Shown piece after piece: positions 26,657 through 40,411 of a DNA stretch of 64,000 nucleotides. The notes beneath the pieces were generated by a model. It searched no databases, was not told the DNA's origin, and saw only the letters and a list, made by a program, of their open reading frames with translations. A program made the translations under genes and the position numbers. Source of the stretch: Polyangia bacterium (GTDB taxonomy: Bacteria > Myxococcota_A > Polyangia > Fen-1088). The stretch covers positions 139,513 to 203,512 of the forward strand of contig DATATI010000091.1 of the NCBI GenBank assembly GCA_036268875.1, written 5' to 3'. The first letter of the stretch is position 1. Each line of letters opens with the position of its first letter.

Positions 26657-26719
26657 CTCGGCCAGTCTACACGTTGAACCGGCCCATCCCGCGTGCTATC
26701 CACAACGGGAGCCGCGCAT

Positions 26720-27793
26720 TTGAGCAGCAATCGATCTACGTCCGTCACGCCCCCCGTCCCTGCCAGTCCAGTCGGTGGTGGCGCCTCGGGCGATGCCAGC
26801 ACCGGCGACGGTCCGCGGCCCATCACCGAACGCCTGGTGCTGGACGACAACCGGGTGGCGTTGGCCGTGTACGGCGAGCGCAACGCCAATTTGAAAATTG
26901 TCGAGCGTCACACCGGCGGCCAGCTTCACGCCCGCGGCAACGAACTGACCATCGTCGGCCTGCCCGACGACGTGGTCATCGCGCGGCGCCTGATCGAACA
27001 GCTTTACAGCATGGCGCGCGGCGGATCACCGATCAGCCCCGAGGACATCGGACGGGCCGCCATCGCCTTGCGCGCCGACAGCGGCGTGGATCTTCGCGAC
27101 GTCTTCAGCGACACGATCCTGGTGGCCGGCCGCGCGCGGCCGATCGCCCCCAAGGGCCTGGCGCAAAAACGTTACGTCGACGCCATCCGCGACTTTGACA
27201 TCGTCTTTGGCATCGGCCCCGCCGGTACCGGCAAGACCTATCTGGCCATGGCGCTGGCCATCCGCGCCTTGATGGAAAAACAGGTCAAACGCATCATTCT
27301 CACTCGCCCGGCGGTGGAGGCGGGCGAGCGCCTGGGCTTCCTGCCCGGCAGCATGGAAGAAAAAATCTCTCCGTATTTACGACCGCTTTACGACGCCCTT
27401 CACGACATGATGGACTTCGAAAAAGCCGATCAACTGCTGGCTCGAGGCCTGATCGAAGTGGCGCCCATCGCCTTCATGCGCGGACGCACGCTGAACGATG
27501 CCTTCGTCATCCTGGACGAGGCGCAGAACACCACCGGCGAGCAGATGAAGATGTTCTTGACCCGTCTTGGTTTCGAATCAAAGGCGGTGATCACCGGCGA
27601 CGTCACGCAGATCGATCTGCCGGACAACCGTCGTTCGGGTCTGACCGAGGCCGAGGCGCTGTTGTCGGGGATCGAGGGGATCGCCTTTCGTTATTTCACC
27701 GAGGTGGATGTGGTGCGCCACCCGCTGGTGCAGAAGATCATCAAGGCCTACGACCGCCCGCCCGGCGACCGGCCCCCCGGCGAGCGCCGCTGA
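26720..27793 (+). CDS. phoH: PhoH-family ATPase (YbeZ-like)
   Basis: I prefer the TTG at 26720, preceded at 9 bases by GGGA; a GTG at 26693 is possible. The 357-residue product has a Gly/Ser-rich N-terminal segment, a KH-like region (about 45-105), then a P-loop NTPase with [11 protein letters not shown] (Walker A) and [12 protein letters not shown] (Walker B), plus [11 protein letters not shown]. YbeZ-type PhoH proteins work with the endoribonuclease YbeY in rRNA processing, and ybeY lies two genes downstream. Confidence 0.92.
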
Positions 27794-27834
27794 ACACATC
27801 AGCTGGCCGTCCGGATCCTTGATACTCTCAGCGC

Positions 27835-29433
27835 GTGGAGGCTCCGGACGACTTTCGCGTGCTGGCGGCTCGCTTTCGCTACGAGCTGGGCGAGTTGCTG
27901 GCCACCTCGCGCGCGCTGTCCTCGGAGCGCGACATCCGCAAGCTGCTGGCGCTGATTTTGGAGAAGTGCCGCCAGGTCACCGGCGCGGATGCCGGCAGCG
28001 TGTACGTCCTGGAAGGCGAGGGGCGTCCGGCGGACAGGCGGCTGCACTTCATGTTGTCGCAGAACGATTCGCTGTCCATCGACCTGCAGGAATTCACCCT
28101 GGGCGTCGACGAGAAATCCATCGTCGGCAAGGCGGTGCTGGACGCGCAGCCGATCAACATTCCCGATCTGGCGGCGCTTTCCGAGACCGGCAAGAACCCC
28201 TGGGGCTTTCGCCACAACCGCACCTTCGACGACAAGACCGGCTACCAAACTCGATCGATGCTGACGGTGCCGATGCTGTCGGCGCAAGGCGAGGTGATCG
28301 GGGTGGTGCAGCTCATCAACCGCAAGCACCACCGCGAGCGGCGCCTGCTGGATCCGGCTGACTTCGCCAACGAAGTGGTGCCGTTCGATCAGCCGGCCGA
28401 GGAGCTGGCGCTGGCGCTGGCGTCGCAAGCGGGGCTCTCGCTGGAGAACGCCATCCTCTACGACGAGATCAAGAAGCTGTTCGAAGGCTTCGTCGACGCC
28501 AGCGTCACGGCGATCGAGTCGCGCGATCCGACCACCTCGGGCCATTCGCGGCGGGTGGCCACGCTGTCGGTGGCGCTGGCGCAGAAGGTGGACGCCACGC
28601 CGGACGGTCCGCTGCGCGACGTGCATTTCACCAGCACAGAGCTCAAACAGATCGAATACGCCGGCATGCTGCACGACTTCGGCAAGGTCGGCGTGCGCGA
28701 GAACGTGCTGGTCAAAGCGAAGAAGTTGTATGAGGCCGATCGGCACGCCATCGGCCTGCGTTTCGCGTACATCCGCAAGTCCCTGGAAGCGGACGTTGCC
28801 GAGCGCAAGCTGCGCGTGGCGCTGGAACTTTCGCGCCATCAATTCGCCGGCCGCGCCGCCGAGCTGGACGCCGATCTTCACCGCCGCCTGGCCGAACTGG
28901 ACGGCCACTGGGCCTTCATCAACCAGGTCAACGAGCCGACGCTGATGGACGAGGGCGGCGTGGCCCGGCTGGCGATGATCGCCAACGAGCGCTACCTCGA
29001 TGCCACCGGCGAGCTGCGCCCGTACCTTGAACGCGACGAGCTGGCGGCGCTGGAGGTCCGGCGCGGCAGCCTGACCGCGGTCGAACGGGTGGAGATCGAG
29101 AGCCACGTGGTGCACACGTTCAACTTCTTGAACAAGATCCCGTGGGGCAAAGAGTTGGCGGCCATCCCGCGCATCGCCGGCTCGCACCACGAATACCTGA
29201 ACGGCGCCGGCTACCCGCGCCACCTGGGCGCGCCGGACATCTGCGTGGAGACGCGCATGATGACCATCGCCGACATCTTCGACGCGCTGACGGCGTCGGA
29301 CCGCCCGTACAAGAAGGCCGTGCCGACCGATCGCGCGCTCCACATCATCGAGGCCGAGGTGAAGAACGGACGCTGCGACGCCGATCTGTTCCGCGTCTTC
29401 GTCGAGGCCGAGGTCTACAAGAAAGCCTTCTGA
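27835..29433 (+). CDS. GAF/HD-GYP phosphodiesterase with large insertion
   Basis: A 532-residue protein from a GTG. A GAF domain (about 25-205) precedes an HD-GYP domain: GHSRRVA (237 onward), the His280-Asp281 pair (HDFGKVG), the second half at IESHVVH (422), SHHEYLNGAGYP (450-461) and MTIADIFDALTASDRPYKKA. HD-GYP enzymes hydrolyse cyclic di-GMP, and the metal and GYP residues look intact. Between the two halves is a 110-residue insertion (about 300-412), absent from typical HD-GYP domains. It sits between phoH and ybeY, a place often taken by a membrane HD phosphodiesterase. Confidence 0.88.
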   Translation: MEAPDDFRVLAARFRYELGELLATSRALSSERDIRKLLALILEKCRQVTGADAGSVYVLEGEGRPADRRLHFMLSQNDSLSIDLQEFTLGVDEKSIVGKAVLDAQPINIPDLAALSETGKNPWGFRHNRTFDDKTGYQTRSMLTVPMLSAQGEVIGVVQLINRKHHRERRLLDPADFANEVVPFDQPAEELALALASQAGLSLENAILYDEIKKLFEGFVDASVTAIESRDPTTSGHSRRVATLSVALAQKVDATPDGPLRDVHFTSTELKQIEYAGMLHDFGKVGVRENVLVKAKKLYEADRHAIGLRFAYIRKSLEADVAERKLRVALELSRHQFAGRAAELDADLHRRLAELDGHWAFINQVNEPTLMDEGGVARLAMIANERYLDATGELRPYLERDELAALEVRRGSLTAVERVEIESHVVHTFNFLNKIPWGKELAAIPRIAGSHHEYLNGAGYPRHLGAPDICVETRMMTIADIFDALTASDRPYKKAVPTDRALHIIEAEVKNGRCDADLFRVFVEAEVYKKAF

Positions 29434-29435
29434 TC

Positions 29436-29894
29436 GTGGCGGTGACGACGCTGGTGCGCGGCCGGGCGACGGCCACGCTTGCGCCCGGCGATCGGCGGGC
29501 GGCGACCGCACGCTTGCGGCTGGCCTTGCGGGCGCTGCGCCGGGGCGGGGCCACCGTGACGCTGGTTTTCACCGACGACGAGGAGATCCGGTTTTTGAAC
29601 CGCACCTACCGCAAGCACGATCGCGCGACCGACGTGCTGAGCTTTCACCTGCAGCAATTGCAAGGCGAGGATGATCCGGCGGCGGCGGCGCGCGGATTCA
29701 ATCTGGGTGACATCGTCATCTCGGTGGAGACGGCGCGCCGGCGATTTCCTGGCCGCAAGCTCGGGCGCGAACTGGAGCGGCTGACGGTGCACGGCCTTTG
29801 TCACCTGTTCGGCCACGACCACCACCGACCGGTGGAGGCCAAGGCGATGTTCGCCCTGCAAAACAAGCTGCTGCGGTTGCCGACCGTCGGCTAG
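29436..29894 (+). CDS. ybeY: Endoribonuclease YbeY
   Basis: A 152-residue zinc protein with the diagnostic three-histidine motif in HGLCHLFGHDHH, and FLNRTYRKHDRATDVLSF and LGDIVIS upstream. YbeY matures 16S rRNA 3' ends and takes part in ribosome quality control. The GTG start is 2 bases after the HD-GYP stop, so the three genes phoH-HD-GYP-ybeY form one operon. Confidence 0.94.
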   Translation: MAVTTLVRGRATATLAPGDRRAATARLRLALRALRRGGATVTLVFTDDEEIRFLNRTYRKHDRATDVLSFHLQQLQGEDDPAAAARGFNLGDIVISVETARRRFPGRKLGRELERLTVHGLCHLFGHDHHRPVEAKAMFALQNKLLRLPTVG

Positions 29895-29965
29895 CGGTCG
29901 CCGTCGGAGAGACGCCGAACCGCCGAGCGCTTCTCGATTCGTGTTAAGTTGTTCGTGCCCGCGCC

Positions 29966-31642
29966 ATGAAGAAGACCTTCGCGATGCTCTCGGTGCCGGG
30001 AACATTCGTCAGCGCGGCGGCGACGCCGCCTGCAGGCCGGTTGGTGGCGAACACCGAGTTCGTGAAGGCGCTGGCTCGTCACGGCAGCTTCGATCGTTTC
30101 TGTTTTTTCATCGGCGAAAACGGCGATCACGACGAGATCGATCGCCTGGCCGCTCTCTGCGGCCTGACCGCGAGCGCGGGCGCCGATCGCTTACTGGTCC
30201 GTCACTTGCTGGATCTGCCGCGCTCGTTTGCCGACGGCGACGTCAGCGTCGTTCACCATGCCTCGCACGTCGAACGGTTTTTGGATCTGGTGTGGCTGCG
30301 CGATCGCTTCGCCTCGCCAAACCACCCGGCCATCCCGGTGACCGGACAGATTCATTCGCTCAGCTATCCCGATCTGATGAAGGATTATCTGCGCGCGCTG
30401 TTGCATCCGCCCGGGCCGCACGACGCGATCTTCTGCTCCAGCCTGGGCGGGCAGATCGTCTTGCAGCGATCGTTCGACGACGCGCGGGCGGCGTTGCAAC
30501 GGATCGGCGCCACGCCGCCGCCCGCCGCGTTCGACACGCCGCTGGTGCCGCTGGGCGTGGACGTCGATCGCATGCGCAGCGGCGATCGCGCCGCCACGCG
30601 GGCCCGCCTGCGCATCGCCGCCGACGAGATCGTCATCCTGGGTCTCGGCCGCTTCAGCGAGTACGACAAGATGGATCTGTTTCCGCTGCTGCAGATCTTT
30701 CAAGGCGTGGCCGCCCAGCATCCGCCCGGCGCGCCGCCCGTGCGCCTGCTGCTGGCGGGCGCGCGCCAGGGCACCCAGACGCCAAAGATGGTCGAGCTGT
30801 GGGCGCAAGCGTTGGGCGTGTCCGCCGCCGTCACCTTGCACGTGGATTTTCCCGAGGCGGAAAAGCCTGATCTGCTGGCGGCGTCGGATGTCTTCGTCTC
30901 GCCCTGCGACAACCTGCAAGAGACGTTCGGCCTGTCGGTGATCGAGGCGATGGCCGCCGGGCTGCCGGTGGTGGTGTCGGACTTCGACGGCTACAAAGAC
31001 ACGGTCTCGCCCGACGCCGGCGTGCGCGTGCCGACGCGTATGAATGTCGATCTTGATCGACTGTCGGATCTGGGATCGATCCTGTATGCCCGTCCATTGC
31101 ACCTGCTGCTCGGTCAGTCGGTCGAGGTGGATCTGCCGACGTTCACGCACGCCCTGGTCACGTTGTGCGCCGACGGCGACCGGCGGGCGCTCCTCGGCGC
31201 CGGGGCGGCGGCGCGGGCGCGCCGGCTTTACGATTGGAAACCGGTCGTGCACGAATATGAAGCCGTGTGGCATGCGCTGGGCGCGGCGCCGTTCGTCCCG
31301 CGCCCCGGGACGCCGCCTCATCACCCAGCCGGCCTGCGCTTCGGTTCGGTGTTCGCCCACTACCCAACGGAGAGCATCGATGACAGTCGGGTGGTCCGCC
31401 GGACCAAGCTCAGCCGCGTGCTATGTGGGAAGGAGAACGGATATTTCGTCTATCCGGAATTGCGCCACGTGTTCTCCGGCAGCGAGGTGCTGGTGGCGCT
31501 GGCCGCCGCCGAGTCGCCGACGCCCCTTGGACAGGTGATCGCCGCCGCCTCCGGACGCTGGCCGCCTGACGAGGGCTGGCGGGCGAAGGCGCTGGTGACC
31601 TGGTTGCTCAAGCACGGCCTCTTGGCCACCGTCACGCTTTAA
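29966..31642 (+). CDS. GT4-like glycosyltransferase
   Basis: A 558-residue cytoplasmic-looking protein. Its C-terminal Rossmann domain (about 205-430) has the GT4 pattern: VILGLGRFSEYDKMDLF, LLLAGARQG, LAASDVFVSPCDNLQETFGLSVIEAMAAG and GLPVVVSDFDGYKD. The N-terminal half lacks a clear acceptor domain signature. A further 110 residues after the GT domain (about 445-558) are unassigned. Donor and product are unknown. It is separated from ybeY by 71 bases. Confidence 0.8.
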   Translation: MKKTFAMLSVPGTFVSAAATPPAGRLVANTEFVKALARHGSFDRFCFFIGENGDHDEIDRLAALCGLTASAGADRLLVRHLLDLPRSFADGDVSVVHHASHVERFLDLVWLRDRFASPNHPAIPVTGQIHSLSYPDLMKDYLRALLHPPGPHDAIFCSSLGGQIVLQRSFDDARAALQRIGATPPPAAFDTPLVPLGVDVDRMRSGDRAATRARLRIAADEIVILGLGRFSEYDKMDLFPLLQIFQGVAAQHPPGAPPVRLLLAGARQGTQTPKMVELWAQALGVSAAVTLHVDFPEAEKPDLLAASDVFVSPCDNLQETFGLSVIEAMAAGLPVVVSDFDGYKDTVSPDAGVRVPTRMNVDLDRLSDLGSILYARPLHLLLGQSVEVDLPTFTHALVTLCADGDRRALLGAGAAARARRLYDWKPVVHEYEAVWHALGAAPFVPRPGTPPHHPAGLRFGSVFAHYPTESIDDSRVVRRTKLSRVLCGKENGYFVYPELRHVFSGSEVLVALAAAESPTPLGQVIAAASGRWPPDEGWRAKALVTWLLKHGLLATVTL

Positions 31643-31752
31643 GCCAGCGGCTCGATCGTTTCAGGAATCCGCCTGGCGCGCTTTGCTGGGGCCGAGCCTG
31701 GTGCTTTTGTCCCCAGCCTCGTGTTAGGGTTCGGCCGTTGCCCTTGGGCCCC

Positions 31753-32652
31753 ATGTTGCGCGCTTTTTTGCGGTCCTTGGTGGCCATAGCTCTGACCGCG
31801 GCGCCGGCCGTGGCGGGCGGCAGTCACGAACCGGGCCCCGGCGCCAGTCCCGGTCCCAGTCCGACCGCTGGGCCGGCGGTGGTCTACATCTGGTACGCCG
31901 ATGGCAGCCCGGCCCCCTCGGAGAGCGCCTGCGCCGGCAAGCTGCCGCCTGCCTATTCATGCACCTTCGGCGTCGACATCGACGACTGCAAGCACCAGGT
32001 GCAAGCGTACCTGGACGACTGGTACGCCGATCTGAACGTCGTCTTCACCTATAACAAACCGACCAGCGGACAATTCTTCACGGTGATCGTCACCGCCTTG
32101 GGCGGCGACTGGTGCAACCCGGGGTATGACCAGCGGGTGGGCGGCGTGGCGCCGATCTCGTGCGAACGCATTTTAGACGACGGCACCTGCTATGCGTTCC
32201 AGTGCGGCCACGACTCGAAGACGTGCGCCACCATCATCTCCCAGGAGCAGGCCCATCTTGTCGGCCTGGAACATACCAGCAGTCCGACCGATGCGATGTA
32301 CGTCTACGTCTCGTCCACCAGCGATGGCTTCGAAGACAAAGAGAATCCGGTGGCGAACAGCGTTTGTAACCGGATCACCCAGAACTCGTTTCAGGCCATG
32401 CGCGATCGGCTGGGGTTGTGGCCGGGCGGCATGAAGCCGGATCCGTTCCTCGACACCGTCAAAGGAACGCTGCCGGCGGTGGCCGTCTATCCGGGCGAGC
32501 TGCAGGGATCAGCCTACGGCTGCGCGATCGCCGGCGGAGACAGCGCCGGGCTCAACGACGGGTCGTCCGATGGCGGGCGGTTTCTGGTGGCGATCGTCGC
32601 GCTGGCGCTGCTGAGCGGACGCCGGCGCGCCGGTCGTTTCGACGCTCGTTGA
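31753..32652 (+). CDS. Secreted Cys-rich protein with altered metzincin motif
   Basis: I use the ATG at 31753; a TTG at 31738 adds 5 residues. The product (299 residues) has a signal peptide ending near AVAGG, ten cysteines (likely disulfides) and, at about residues 164-174, QEQAHLVGLEH. This aligns with the metzincin zinc motif HExxHxxGxxH but has Gln in place of the first His; SPTDAMY follows where a Met-turn might lie. The C-terminus has GG, a hydrophobic helix and RRR, as in GlyGly-CTERM or MYXO-CTERM sorting signals, though the MYXO cysteine is missing. Activity is uncertain. Confidence 0.65.
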   Translation: MLRAFLRSLVAIALTAAPAVAGGSHEPGPGASPGPSPTAGPAVVYIWYADGSPAPSESACAGKLPPAYSCTFGVDIDDCKHQVQAYLDDWYADLNVVFTYNKPTSGQFFTVIVTALGGDWCNPGYDQRVGGVAPISCERILDDGTCYAFQCGHDSKTCATIISQEQAHLVGLEHTSSPTDAMYVYVSSTSDGFEDKENPVANSVCNRITQNSFQAMRDRLGLWPGGMKPDPFLDTVKGTLPAVAVYPGELQGSAYGCAIAGGDSAGLNDGSSDGGRFLVAIVALALLSGRRRAGRFDAR

Positions 32653-32752
32653 TCGCGCGCTTTCGGACGCGTTCGGATCCGGTGTCCCACCTCTCGGCAC
32701 CTCGCGCGACGTTCATGGCGCAGACGATTCGAAACGCGCGACAACACAGGTC

Positions 32753-32782
32753 TTGACGTCACATCAAAGCTGCGCCTATATG
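32753..32782 (+). promoter_or_regulatory. Promoter of the act-cta operon
   Basis: TTGACG (32753-32758) is separated by 18 bases from TATATG (32777-32782). The expected start site near 32789 leaves only about 8 untranslated bases before the actA ATG, and GAGG abuts the ATG directly, so the mRNA may be nearly leaderless. No other promoter-like site is seen in the following 12.6 kb of overlapping genes. Confidence 0.55.
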
Positions 32783-32796
32783 CTGCGCCAACGAGG

Positions 32797-33443
32797 ATGA
32801 ATCCTCTCTTTCGGCCTAGGCACAACACACTCGCAAACGTCTCCCTTTTCGTGCTCGCGGCGGGCGCGCTGGGAACGGTGGGCGGGTTGCTTCTTTACGT
32901 CCGGACCCCTTACGCCCGCGGGATGCAGGATCCGATCGAACAGCCGATCCAGTTCGACCATCGGCACCACACCCGTGACGAAGGCATCGACTGTCGGTAC
33001 TGCCACAACACCGTCGACAGATCCCCGCACGCCAGCATTCCCCCGACGCAACTTTGTCTCAACTGCCACTCGCAGGTGTGGAACAAGAGCCCGCTCCTGG
33101 AACCGGTGCGGCAAAGCTTCTTCGAGAACAAGCCCCTCGAATGGCGGCGCGTCTACAAGGTTCCCGAGTTCGTTTATTTCAACCACGCCATCCATGTGAA
33201 CAAGGGCGTCGGTTGCGTCAGCTGTCACGGGCGCGTTGATCAGCAGGCGGCGGTGGAAAAGTCGACCACGCTGACGATGGGTTTCTGTCTCGACTGCCAC
33301 CGCAACCCCGAGCCCAACCTGCGGCCGGTCGAGGAAGTGACGAACATGGCATGGAAGCCCGAGGGTGATCCCGACGAGGAAGGGCGCATGCTCGCCGCAA
33401 AAAACGAGATCCACACCCGGACCAGCTGCACCACGTGTCACCG

Positions 33444-33447
<4 letters not shown>
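32797..33447 (+). CDS. actA: Alternative complex III subunit ActA (pentahaem cytochrome c)
   Basis: A 216-residue protein with one N-terminal membrane helix (about 13-35) and five CxxCH haem sites at residues 66, 87, 140, 164 and 211. Five haems is the known ActA number. ActA lies on the periplasmic face and carries electrons from ActB towards ActE and the oxidase. Its stop overlaps the actB start (ATGA). First gene of the act-cta operon. Confidence 0.93.
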
Positions 33448-36536
<3,089 letters not shown>

Positions 36537-36538
36537 CC

Positions 36539-37948
36539 ATGGCCGCGCCGAATATGGTCAACCTGTCCCGCGACCCGCTGGAGCCGCGCGTCCTCATCGA
36601 GGGCAAGCAGACCGACGCTTCGCTGAACGACAGCCTGCTCCAGCACGTCTGGCGGGGCGCTGGCCGCGGCTGGTGGGCGTGCTTCTCGGTGGCGCTGGCG
36701 TTGCTGGGATTGCTGGTCGTCGCCATCACCTGGACGCTTTACAAAGGCATCGGGGCCTGGGGAAACAACATCCCGGTCGGATGGGCCTTCGGCATCATCA
36801 ACTTCGTCTGGTGGATCGGTATCGGCCACGCCGGTACGCTGATCTCCGCCATTCTCCTTCTGTTGCAGCAGCAGTGGCGCACGTCGATCAATCGTTTCGC
36901 CGAGGCGATGACGTTGTTCGCGGTCATCTGCGCGCTGCTCTTCCCGCTGCTGCACACCGGGCGCCCGTGGTTCGCGGCGTACTGGCTCATGCCGTATCCC
37001 AGCGTTCAAAAGATCTGGCCGCAGTTCAAAAGCCCGCTGACCTGGGACGTCTTCGCTGTCTCGACGTACTTCACAATCTCGTTGCTGTTCTGGTTCCTGG
37101 GTCTCGTGCCCGACCTGGCGTCGCTGCGGGATTCGTCGAAGAGCCCGATCAAGCGCCGCATCTATGGCCTGGTGGCCATGGGCTGGCGCGGGTCGGGCCG
37201 TCACTGGGCCGAGTACAAATGGGCCTATCTGCTGCTGGCCGGTCTGTCGACCCCGCTGGTGCTGTCGGTGCACACCATCGTGTCCTTCGACTTCGCGGTG
37301 TCGGTGCTGCCGGGGTGGCACACCACCATCTTCCCGCCGTACTTCGTCGCCGGCGCCGTCTTCTCGGGCTTCGCCATGGTGGCGACGTGGATGATCCCGG
37401 CGCGGCACTTCCTGGGCCTCAAGCACGTCGTGACCGTCCGGCACATGGAGAACATGTGCAAGGTGATGCTGGCGACCGGAATGATGGTGGCCTACGGCTA
37501 CGCGATGGAGCACTTCATTGCCTGGTACAGCGGCAATGAATACGAGTTCGGACAGTTCTTCCGTGTTCGCCAGCACGGCCCGATGGCGCCCGTCTACTGG
37601 ACGATGATTTTCTGCAATGTGCTGGTGCCGCAGATCTTCTGGTTCAAACGCGCGCGCACGCACATGGCTGTCATCTGGGGGGCGTCGATCCTGATCAACG
37701 TCGGTATGTGGTGCGAGCGCTTCACCATCATCGTCACCTCTTTGCACCGCGACTTTATCCCGTCGAGTTGGAAGAACTACGCACCGACTTGGGTGGACAT
37801 CAGCTTGTTCCTGGGGACCATCGGGCTCTTCTCCACGCTGTTTCTGCTGTTCCTCAAGTTCATCCCCGCAGTGGCGGTCACCGAGGTGAAGGAGCTGCGG
37901 CACGAGAACGAGCACAAGGAGCAAGTCGCCGCTGAGGGGGCGCACTGA
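36539..37948 (+). CDS. actC: Alternative complex III subunit ActC (NrfD-like quinol-binding protein)
   Basis: A 469-residue integral membrane protein with about ten hydrophobic helices in the NrfD/PsrC pattern ([20 protein letters not shown]). In ACIII the quinol site is in ActC. It starts 2 bases after actB, and its stop shares one base with the actD start (TGATG). Topology counts are by eye. Confidence 0.92.
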
Positions 37949-38511
37949 TGAGCGCCGGGCACGAAGGAAGCGGCTTTGTCCCGCGCCGGTTCGTGGTTGG
38001 TCAATTCGCCACCACCGACGCCTTGCTGGAGGGCACCAAGCAGGTGCGGGCCCGGGGTCACAAGAACCTGGACACGCACACTCCGTACCCGGTGCACGGT
38101 CTGGAAGAGGCGATCGGCCTCAAGCGCGCGAAGATCCCGACCATCGTTTTGATGGGCGCGATAGCCGGCGCCTTCATCGCCTACAGCCTGATCTACTACT
38201 GCAACGTGTTCGACTGGCCGATGAACGTCGGCAACCGGCCGCCGCACGGCCCGCCGGCGAACATCCCGATCACATTCGAGCTGGCGGTGCTGATCGGCGG
38301 AACGTCGTCGTTCTTCGGTTTCTTTGCCCTGGCGGGCCTGCCCAAGCCATATCACCCGATCTTCCAGTCGGAGACGTTCGCGAGCGCCTCCATCGACGGA
38401 TTCTTTCTTTCTGTCGAGGTGCCGGCGGAAGTGACGCCGGAGAAGGTGGCCGACGACGTGCGGGGCGCCGGCGGAACCGGCGTGGAGATCATCGAGGAGC
38501 TGGAACGATGA
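37948..38511 (+). CDS. actD: Alternative complex III subunit ActD (DUF3341)
   Basis: A 187-residue protein. The N-terminal soluble domain has HTPYPVHGLEEAIGLKR, the hallmark of DUF3341; two membrane helices follow (about 66-88 and 108-130), and YHPIFQSETFASASIDGFFL lies near the C-terminus. ActD is a scaffold subunit without cofactors. It overlaps the actE start by 4 bases. Confidence 0.92.
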   Translation: MSAGHEGSGFVPRRFVVGQFATTDALLEGTKQVRARGHKNLDTHTPYPVHGLEEAIGLKRAKIPTIVLMGAIAGAFIAYSLIYYCNVFDWPMNVGNRPPHGPPANIPITFELAVLIGGTSSFFGFFALAGLPKPYHPIFQSETFASASIDGFFLSVEVPAEVTPEKVADDVRGAGGTGVEIIEELER

Positions 38512-39193
38512 GGCGGGGCGCTTCCACCGCCCTGGTCACCGCCTTGTTGACGACGGCGGCGACGCTGTCGCCGCTGCTTTCCGGCTGCGACGAGAACCTC
38601 CTCGACCCGATGGCCGACCGCCAGCCGAAGGTGAAGCCGTACAAGGAAAGCGCCTTCTGGGACGACGGCCTGTCGATGCGCGCGCCGCCCGAGGGCACGG
38701 TGCCGCGCGAGCGCTCGCGCCTGGGCCTGCTGCTGACGGCCGGGCACACGCCCGAGGCTGGGCCGTATTCGCTGAACGGCGAGGCGGTCAACGCCGGTTT
38801 CGCCCCCGCCATCCCCTTGTCGGTGAACGCCAAGCTGCTGGCCCTGGGACGCAAGCGGTTCGACATCACCTGCGCCACCTGTCACGGTCCGCTGGGCGAC
38901 GGCGACAGCATCGTCGCGCGGCAGATGGCCCTCCGTCCGCCGCCGTCGCTGCACAAATATTCCGACCGCGCGCCCGGCTACATCTATGAGGTCATCAGCA
39001 AAGGCTTCGGCCTGATGGCTTCCTACGCCGCCGAACTGACCATCGAAGAGCGCTGGGCGGTCGTGGCGTACGTGCGCGCCTTGCAGCTGAGCCAGAACGT
39101 TTCTGTCGACGCCGTTCCCGCCGACGTGCGGGCGCGGTTGCAGGCGCTGCCGCAAGGGGTGTCTGCCCCAGCGCCGGCCCACAAGGAGATCCC

Positions 39194-39197
<4 letters not shown>
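38508..39197 (+). CDS. actE: Alternative complex III subunit ActE (mono-haem lipoprotein cytochrome c)
   Basis: A 229-residue lipoprotein (lipobox LLSGC, Cys27) with one CxxCH (CATCH, residues 122-126) and a plausible axial Met in GFGLMASY. ActE is the likely electron exit to the oxidase or to a soluble cytochrome. It overlaps actD and actF by 4 bases each, so stoichiometric expression is likely. Confidence 0.92.

Positions 39198-40407
<1,210 letters not shown>

Positions 40408-40411
<4 letters not shown>

Follow-up and report, generated by a model that had tools for sequence, protein, structure and literature searches.

A metzincin-like protein family, probably mainly of myxobacteria, in which glutamine is the commonest sampled residue at the place of the first zinc-binding histidine

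The window, that is, the whole 64 kb stretch of DNA analyzed here, carries on its forward strand (31753..32652) a coding sequence for a metzincin-like protein of the QExxH type, with 299 residues and a stop codon. No internal stop interrupts this frame, and a TTG codon at 31738 offers an alternative possible start. Inspection of the translation by eye suggested the following layout: a signal peptide, a Gly/Pro-rich linker, a domain of approximately 185 residues and a tail. The putative signal peptide (approximately residues 1-21; 31753..31815, +) was recognized by its Arg-containing start, hydrophobic core and AxA sequence. The predicted metzincin catalytic domain (approximately residues 38-221; 31864..32415, +) was delimited by the range aligned to acutolysin A (VIA-align 2), and the block means of the predicted model lay between pLDDT 73 and 97 over residues 41-230. 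Within this domain lies the active-site motif QEQAHLVGLEH (residues 164-174; 32242..32274, +), comprising Gln164 at the place of the first His, Glu165, Ala167, His168, Gly171 and His174, which is the single occurrence of xExxHxxGxxH in the six frames of the window. The three-His pattern HExxHxxGxxH of metzincins is absent since the first His is missing, and the QExxHxxGxxH pattern of VMP3-like enzymes is present. Moreover, the alignment identified Asp180-Ala-Met182 (32290..32298, +) as the Met-turn Met, eight residues past His174, preceded at two residues by an Asp. The alignment also identified Cys137 (32161..32163, +) and Cys205 (32365..32367, +), each conserved in 99% of the Gln-type homologues, which probably form a disulfide in the window protein; they belong to a set of ten cysteines at residues 60, 70, 79, 121, 137, 146, 151, 158, 205 and 257. 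The sorting-type C-terminal tail (32518..32649, +), read from the translation, consists of Gly-Cys257, a linker, a hydrophobic stretch at residues 277-287 and Arg290-292, and it ends in GG-RFLVAIVALALLSG-RRR. These features bear out the first-pass annotation, which had noted that the motif keeps the Glu, two His and the Gly without the first ligand, and that the protein combines ten cysteines with a GG-helix-RRR tail.

The genes around this locus (window 26693-40411) were housekeeping-like by Pfam (PhoH, a GAF/HD protein, YbeY, a GT4 glycosyltransferase and a multihaem cytochrome), followed by genes that by eye resemble an alternative complex III operon. The flanking genes that were tried were absent from the other loci examined and from nine longer loci of near homologues; therefore, gene order offered no functional clue. 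A Gln-type paralogue in the same genome (L031:5403-9578) and relatives in genera g2 and g4 (L042, L043, L044 and L046) have common neighbours, a Ser/Thr kinase with DUF4388 and an unknown protein encoded on the opposite strand, which the window gene does not have.

The window protein was matched by Pfam to Peptidase_M10 at E 0.028 and 14.7 bits, which is under the curated cut-off of 24; no Ig domain was matched in this short protein, and an NCBIfam scan with E up to 10 returned fragilysin only (E 0.08). Searched by itself against PDB sequences, the window protein gave only one weak match, lysozyme M (E 1.2), and the family profile found matrix metalloproteinases (MMPs) and their relatives (best E 1.3e-5). 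The AlphaFold2 model, for which the window protein was combined with 13 relatives, contained 135 residues at pLDDT 90 or above, and its stretches below 50 (residues 1-38, 235-243 and 245-299) corresponded to the signal, linker and tail. Foldseek matched this model to MMP-1 among solved structures (E 3.5e-5). The best VIA-align entry was acutolysin A (Z 11.3, rmsd 3.2 over 143 residues), further entries included archaemetzincin (Z 10.9) and fragilysin (Z 10.4), and the 50 entries listed (Z 9.6-11.3) were venom metalloproteinases, ADAM/ADAMTS proteins, archaemetzincins, fragilysins or like peptidases. The catalytic domain is thus predicted to adopt a metzincin fold around the motif. The earlier annotation had proposed such a fold and had named its absence as the ground for giving the proposal up; because the solved-structure matches were metzincins, the proposal stands on the model and on both structural searches.

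Matches to the window protein at E ≤ 0.001 were found in 31 of 59 genomes, its own genome counted, and the nine nearest homologues, the gene itself aside, were 39-51% identical. The family profile matched 117 of 192 genomes of the class at E ≤ 1e-5 and 30 of 282 genomes of a phylum sample at 1e-8, class members included. At the DNA level, the pattern QExAHxxGL[DE]H, which misses any Gln member that departs from it at position 4, 9 or 10, was present in 65 of the 192 class genomes, with up to 12 matches in one genome (G030), and in nine of the 282 phylum genomes, seven of which are class members with family matches; the control read backwards gave 0 in all rows. Two pattern matches, in G281 and G123, concern genomes for which the phylum profile search gave no family match, and G123 had no match in the class search either. 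The Gln-type sequences came from class groups f1, f5, f6, f9, f12, f16, f20, f23 and f24, from five named records and from one broken f46 sequence (L162) outside the class. Thirteen named loci were found with a Gln-only alignment and, being Gln-type by construction, are uninformative on frequency; by title they belong to Myxococcota or Myxococcales (6), Polyangia (3), Proteobacteria (2), a plain "bacterium" (1) and Enhygromyxa salina SWB007 (1). The Gln type is therefore present in a named strain of Enhygromyxa, a genus of the Nannocystaceae (Myxococcota, Polyangia), and group f6 is probably Nannocystaceae. To judge from the named relatives, the family would be mainly one of the window's class, the myxobacteria (Polyangia). 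No relative was found when the single window protein was searched against the genome contig collection, and no match when one Gln-type member was searched against the plasmid collection.

The longer members that were read begin with an N-terminal leader and the metzincin domain, followed in many cases by a bacterial Ig domain, then by a linker rich in Ser, Thr and Gly and by a tail of MYXO-CTERM type. In 39 members scanned with Pfam, Peptidase_M10 was matched at E ≤ 0.1 in 34 and Big_7 in 21 of the 39 trimmed segments. A third, short match in the window's own genome (L033; G000 contig 80, 98970-99101; 42% over 43 residues) lies in an open frame of 135 codons that does not contain the motif and may be what is left of a gene. 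Among the open-access papers listed by the literature searches, no report of a bacterial QExxH metzincin was found.

Textbooks define the metzincins by their three-His site, and an enzyme that has lost one of the ligands is normally taken to be dead. In the present study, the residue at the first-ligand place was Gln in 130, His in 57, Met in seven, Lys in one and Leu in one of 196 distinct homologues (268 alignment rows minus 67 duplicate or contained rows and five short rows); this set was picked by score and diversity, and the Gln and His counts are therefore not frequencies in nature. In answer to the earlier question whether Gln is fixed among homologues, Gln proved to be the commonest state (130/196), although not a fixed one, as His, Met and Lys also occur. 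The observation is right and larger than first described; Gln recurs across the family and is not peculiar to one protein. Sequencing error was ruled out as its source because 64 of the 107 genomes or records sampled have Gln here. His and Gln forms both occur among close relatives within family f1, and copies of both types were found together in seven of the 107 genomes or records, which form an incomplete sample. The seven Met-type homologues (L152, L153, L154, L209, L239, L241 and L251), six of which read MExAHxxGLDH, all retain the Glu, both His and the Met-turn Met. A lone Lys occurs in L026 (G002 contig 1, family f1; KEVAHAFGLDH).

For comparison, the NCBIfam model NF041905 (MXAN_2677/2678 myxosortase-dependent metalloproteases) by its name likewise covers myxobacterial metzincins with sorting tails, and it weakly matches the Gln-type members L049-L052. 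Unlike the present family, the 13 distinct genes recovered by the NF041905 search (15 instances at 14 loci) were all HExGH; two of the loci re-fetch L254 and L255, and one further pattern match was an out-of-frame artefact. As all 39 searched genomes remained under the 250-bit cut-off of the model, these 13 genes are kin of that group, not members. Since all of them are HExGH, Gln characterises this family, not the metzincins of these organisms generally.

The distribution of the His and non-His states was followed on an unrooted tree of 193 rows from which the motif columns 134-139 had been left out. The best tree contained 17 changes between His and non-His, at least seven of which were forced by supported branches. 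These changes speak against a single origin of Gln, but their direction is unreadable without a root. Within family f1 alone, one clade of the seven tested Gln members was compatible with the data (p-AU 0.153). The f1 tree placed the window protein together with three His-type proteins from genus g5 (support 94/87), and this group adjoined a Gln group containing the paralogue at G000 contig 14. If this placement is right, either Gln had more than one origin or g5 reverted to His; such a reversion in g5 is suggested.

The change at motif position 1 was accompanied by a change at position 4. Gly was found at position 4 in 54 of the 57 His-type sequences (Ala in L008, L022 and L166), and the 130 Gln-type sequences had Ala in 112, Gly in 10, Ser in seven and Thr in one; non-His sequences with Gly were L102, L104, L112, L177, L183, L185, L209, L223, L235 and L243 and two broken rows. 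Seven independent pairs were compared on supported branches of the tree; on average, position 4 scored as Gly or not tracked position 1 in 5.7 of them and ran opposite in 0.0 (median p of the sign test 0.031, range 0.016-0.375). When eight long rows and columns 130-146 were omitted, the agreement was 6.4 of 7, with 0.0 opposite (median p 0.031, range 0.016-0.125). When majority residues were scored, the value for position 4 was 5.1 of 7, and no other column with raw p < 1e-3 exceeded 3.4. This coupling rests on only seven pairs, and position 4 was picked post hoc from the alignment.

The remainder of the site was strongly conserved in the Gln-type sequences. The Glu was present in 128, the second His in 129 and the third His in 129 of 130, with all three in 128, and these residues are within the nine most conserved columns. 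The Met-turn Met was retained in 116 and occurred together with the other three in 114. Moreover, dN/dS ranged from 0.05 to 0.37 in 29 close, non-independent Gln-Gln pairs (median 0.158), from 0.06 to 0.22 in four His-His pairs and was 0.09 in one Met-Met pair; by these ratios, close Gln pairs are under purifying selection. As to the earlier alternative of an inactive protein or a different ligand set, the retention of the Glu and both His in 128 of 130 sequences, the purifying selection and the position-4 coupling together favour a maintained altered site over decay.

The earlier proposal of a secreted surface protein held in part. The protein looks secreted, and both visual inspection and a simple pattern indicate a sorting-type C-terminus, although the MYXO-CTERM model (TIGR03901, 20-bit cut-off) did not match its tail in the NCBIfam scan with E up to 10. 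Of 175 candidates in its own genome, 150 were scored, and this tail was not among the 27 TIGR03901 places listed there; 12 places exceeded the cut-off, one of them in the frame of a Gln-type paralogue (22.5 bits). In 14 control genomes, six had matches and none was over the cut-off, and the relative L051 exceeded it at 22.2 bits. By a simple pattern of Cys, hydrophobic stretch and Arg, applied without a control, a tail was found in 35 of 37 Gln-type sequences, the window protein included, in 17 of 34 His-type and in none of two others; it was found in one of seven Met-type homologues, so that six of the seven were without it. For this count, 116 of the 196 rows, 93 of them Gln-type, were set aside because their available sequence does not reach the C-terminus. 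MrtX is described (PMC11980579) as cutting MYXO-CTERM proteins at a conserved Cys and anchoring them at the surface. The window tail resembles these MrtX substrates in its Cys, transmembrane stretch and Arg-rich end; unlike MYXO-CTERM proteins, it has a long spacer between Cys and helix and is unmatched by TIGR03901. Only one MrtX-like CPBP protease was found in the window's own genome, at 151 bits against a cut-off of 180, and four of the 14 control genomes also had matches below the cut-off, so that the support from this protease is weak. It is thus plausible that the window protein would be anchored at the surface.

The reading that we favour, with a probability of roughly 0.55, is that the protein is a working, probably surface-anchored peptidase whose metal site consists of two His plus Gln, or plus water. 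Metal binding, activity, the role of Gln and anchoring are all deduced here from sequence. His168 and His174 would hold the metal, Glu165 would activate water, and Gln164 would either bind weakly through its amide oxygen or leave the place to water. Gln is a poor zinc ligand, and the occurrence of Met or Lys at this place (8/196) suggests that the side chain need not bind metal at all. The replacement of Gly by Ala at position 4 may re-pack the helix around a side chain other than His. The signal peptide would export the protein, and a myxosortase-type enzyme might then cleave it and lipid-anchor it at Cys257 on the cell surface. Matrixins (PF00413, Peptidase_M10; MMPs, karilysin and fragilysin) share with the family the fold and ExxHxxGxxH with a Met-turn; unlike them, the family has Gln for the first His, a pair of conserved Cys and, following the Met-turn, a Gln-Asn/Asp-Ser element.

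For Gln at this place, a single biochemical precedent was found, by analogy, in VMP3 of the alga Volvox carteri, an extracellular QExxHxxGxxH protein that is described as a functional enzyme with a preference for copper (Heitzer and Hallmann 2002, as relayed in PMC7717551). The VMPs share an M11 domain according to PMC4378016; none of the 20 Pfam families to which the 39 scanned members gave matches (E ≤ 0.1) was M11. On the strength of this likeness, the Gln type possibly prefers copper. Furthermore, PMC7717551 reports simulations in which the H197Q change of MMP8 fits without backbone change and stabilises a Cu(II) site, draws no conclusion for Zn, and says that experiments on this Gln change in MMPs do not exist. 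A survey of substituted zincins (PMC3650047) found Arg, Lys and Glu over-represented as replacements and considered that the biochemistry may partly survive some of the substitutions.

The main rival, which we rank behind a working peptidase while regarding it as a serious contender, is a pseudopeptidase that hydrolyses no peptide and acts as a binding or decoy module at the surface, its His pair and Glu holding a structural or weak metal or shaping the groove. The loss of the first His, with Lys and Met tolerated there as well, points this way, as does the replacement of the Met-turn Met in 14 of 130 Gln-type sequences (Leu in 12) against none of 57 His-type sequences. The joint occurrence of His and Gln copies would also resemble an enzyme with its decoy, although in a minority of genomes of an incomplete sample. 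Metzincin pseudoenzymes are known among the ADAMs, and a published table (PMC11266112) contains seven with Gln at the first-ligand place (ADAM2, 11, 18, 22, 23 and 32, and unc-71), three of which (ADAM22, 23 and 32) have Ala at position 4. Because Gln with Ala also occurs in these dead proteins, the coupling would reflect helix re-packing on loss of the His ligand and is not in itself a sign of activity. All seven tabulated proteins, however, have lost the catalytic Glu and often further ligands, which the present family keeps almost without exception (Glu in 128, each His in 129 of 130) despite deep divergence. The suggested return from Gln to His in g5 would likewise be easier with a working site, but a single f1 Gln clade is compatible with the data, as noted above. 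A working peptidase with an altered metal site is thus still preferred to a pseudopeptidase.

A conventional zinc peptidase whose third ligand is now supplied by a different residue (a further His, Asp or Cys) is improbable in our judgement. The Gln-type sequences of f6 have two extra His at columns 118 and 172, the second present in 31 of the 32 sequences with the first, as possible extra metal ligands; 78 of the 130 Gln-type sequences, the window protein among them, have neither. In the alignment columns, no ligand-type residue was near-universal in non-His and rare in His sequences, and outside the motif no His, Cys, Glu, Tyr or Met combined presence in half or more of the non-His sequences with a frequency lower by 25 points or more in the His sequences. 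The columns that passed this filter were Asp at 71, 165, 198, 211, 227 and 228 and Asn at 26, 111 and 183, of which only Asn at column 183 was near-universal (0.92 in non-His versus 0.46 in His sequences). Asp was commoner in non-His sequences at column 165, the window Asp195 (0.68 versus 0.30), and at column 71 (0.57 versus 0.19), and Asp180 was found in 123 of 130 Gln-type and 42 of 57 His-type sequences. On the tree, however, these residues barely follow the switch: Asp180 in 1.1 of 7 pairs, column 165 in 2.1, column 71 in 2.2 versus 1.2 opposite, and columns 71, 165 and 183 all within 2.1-2.2. Three candidates that raw counts had seemed to link to Gln, namely Asp180, Asn211 and the acidic residue that precedes His174, were rejected since they do not track the switch along the tree.

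Least probable of all is a non-peptidase site, for example copper held by two His and Gln or Met for redox chemistry, for which speak the alternation of Gln and Met at one place, Met being a common copper ligand, and the description of VMP3 as copper-favouring, whereas the general-base Glu is nearly always kept in the metzincin fold and no further conserved copper ligand was seen.

In conclusion, the protein belongs to a known kind, the metzincins, and what is new is a family variant in which Gln is the commonest residue at the first-ligand place in the sample. Ligand loss is usually taken to mean a dead enzyme, and here a large and constrained family keeps nearly all else of its site. Because His and Gln forms occur in close relatives and seven of 107 genomes or records hold both, the function and the metal of a two-His metzincin are directly testable here. 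More tentatively, and with clear doubt on our part, the family may represent a bacterial metzincin radiation built on a two-His site whose first residue is neutral (mostly Gln, Met in certain members), possibly using copper and toggling with the three-His zinc site through a two-residue switch between His/Gly and Gln/Ala. If that were true, this radiation would be a natural record of repeated switching of metal site or metal preference within one enzyme family.
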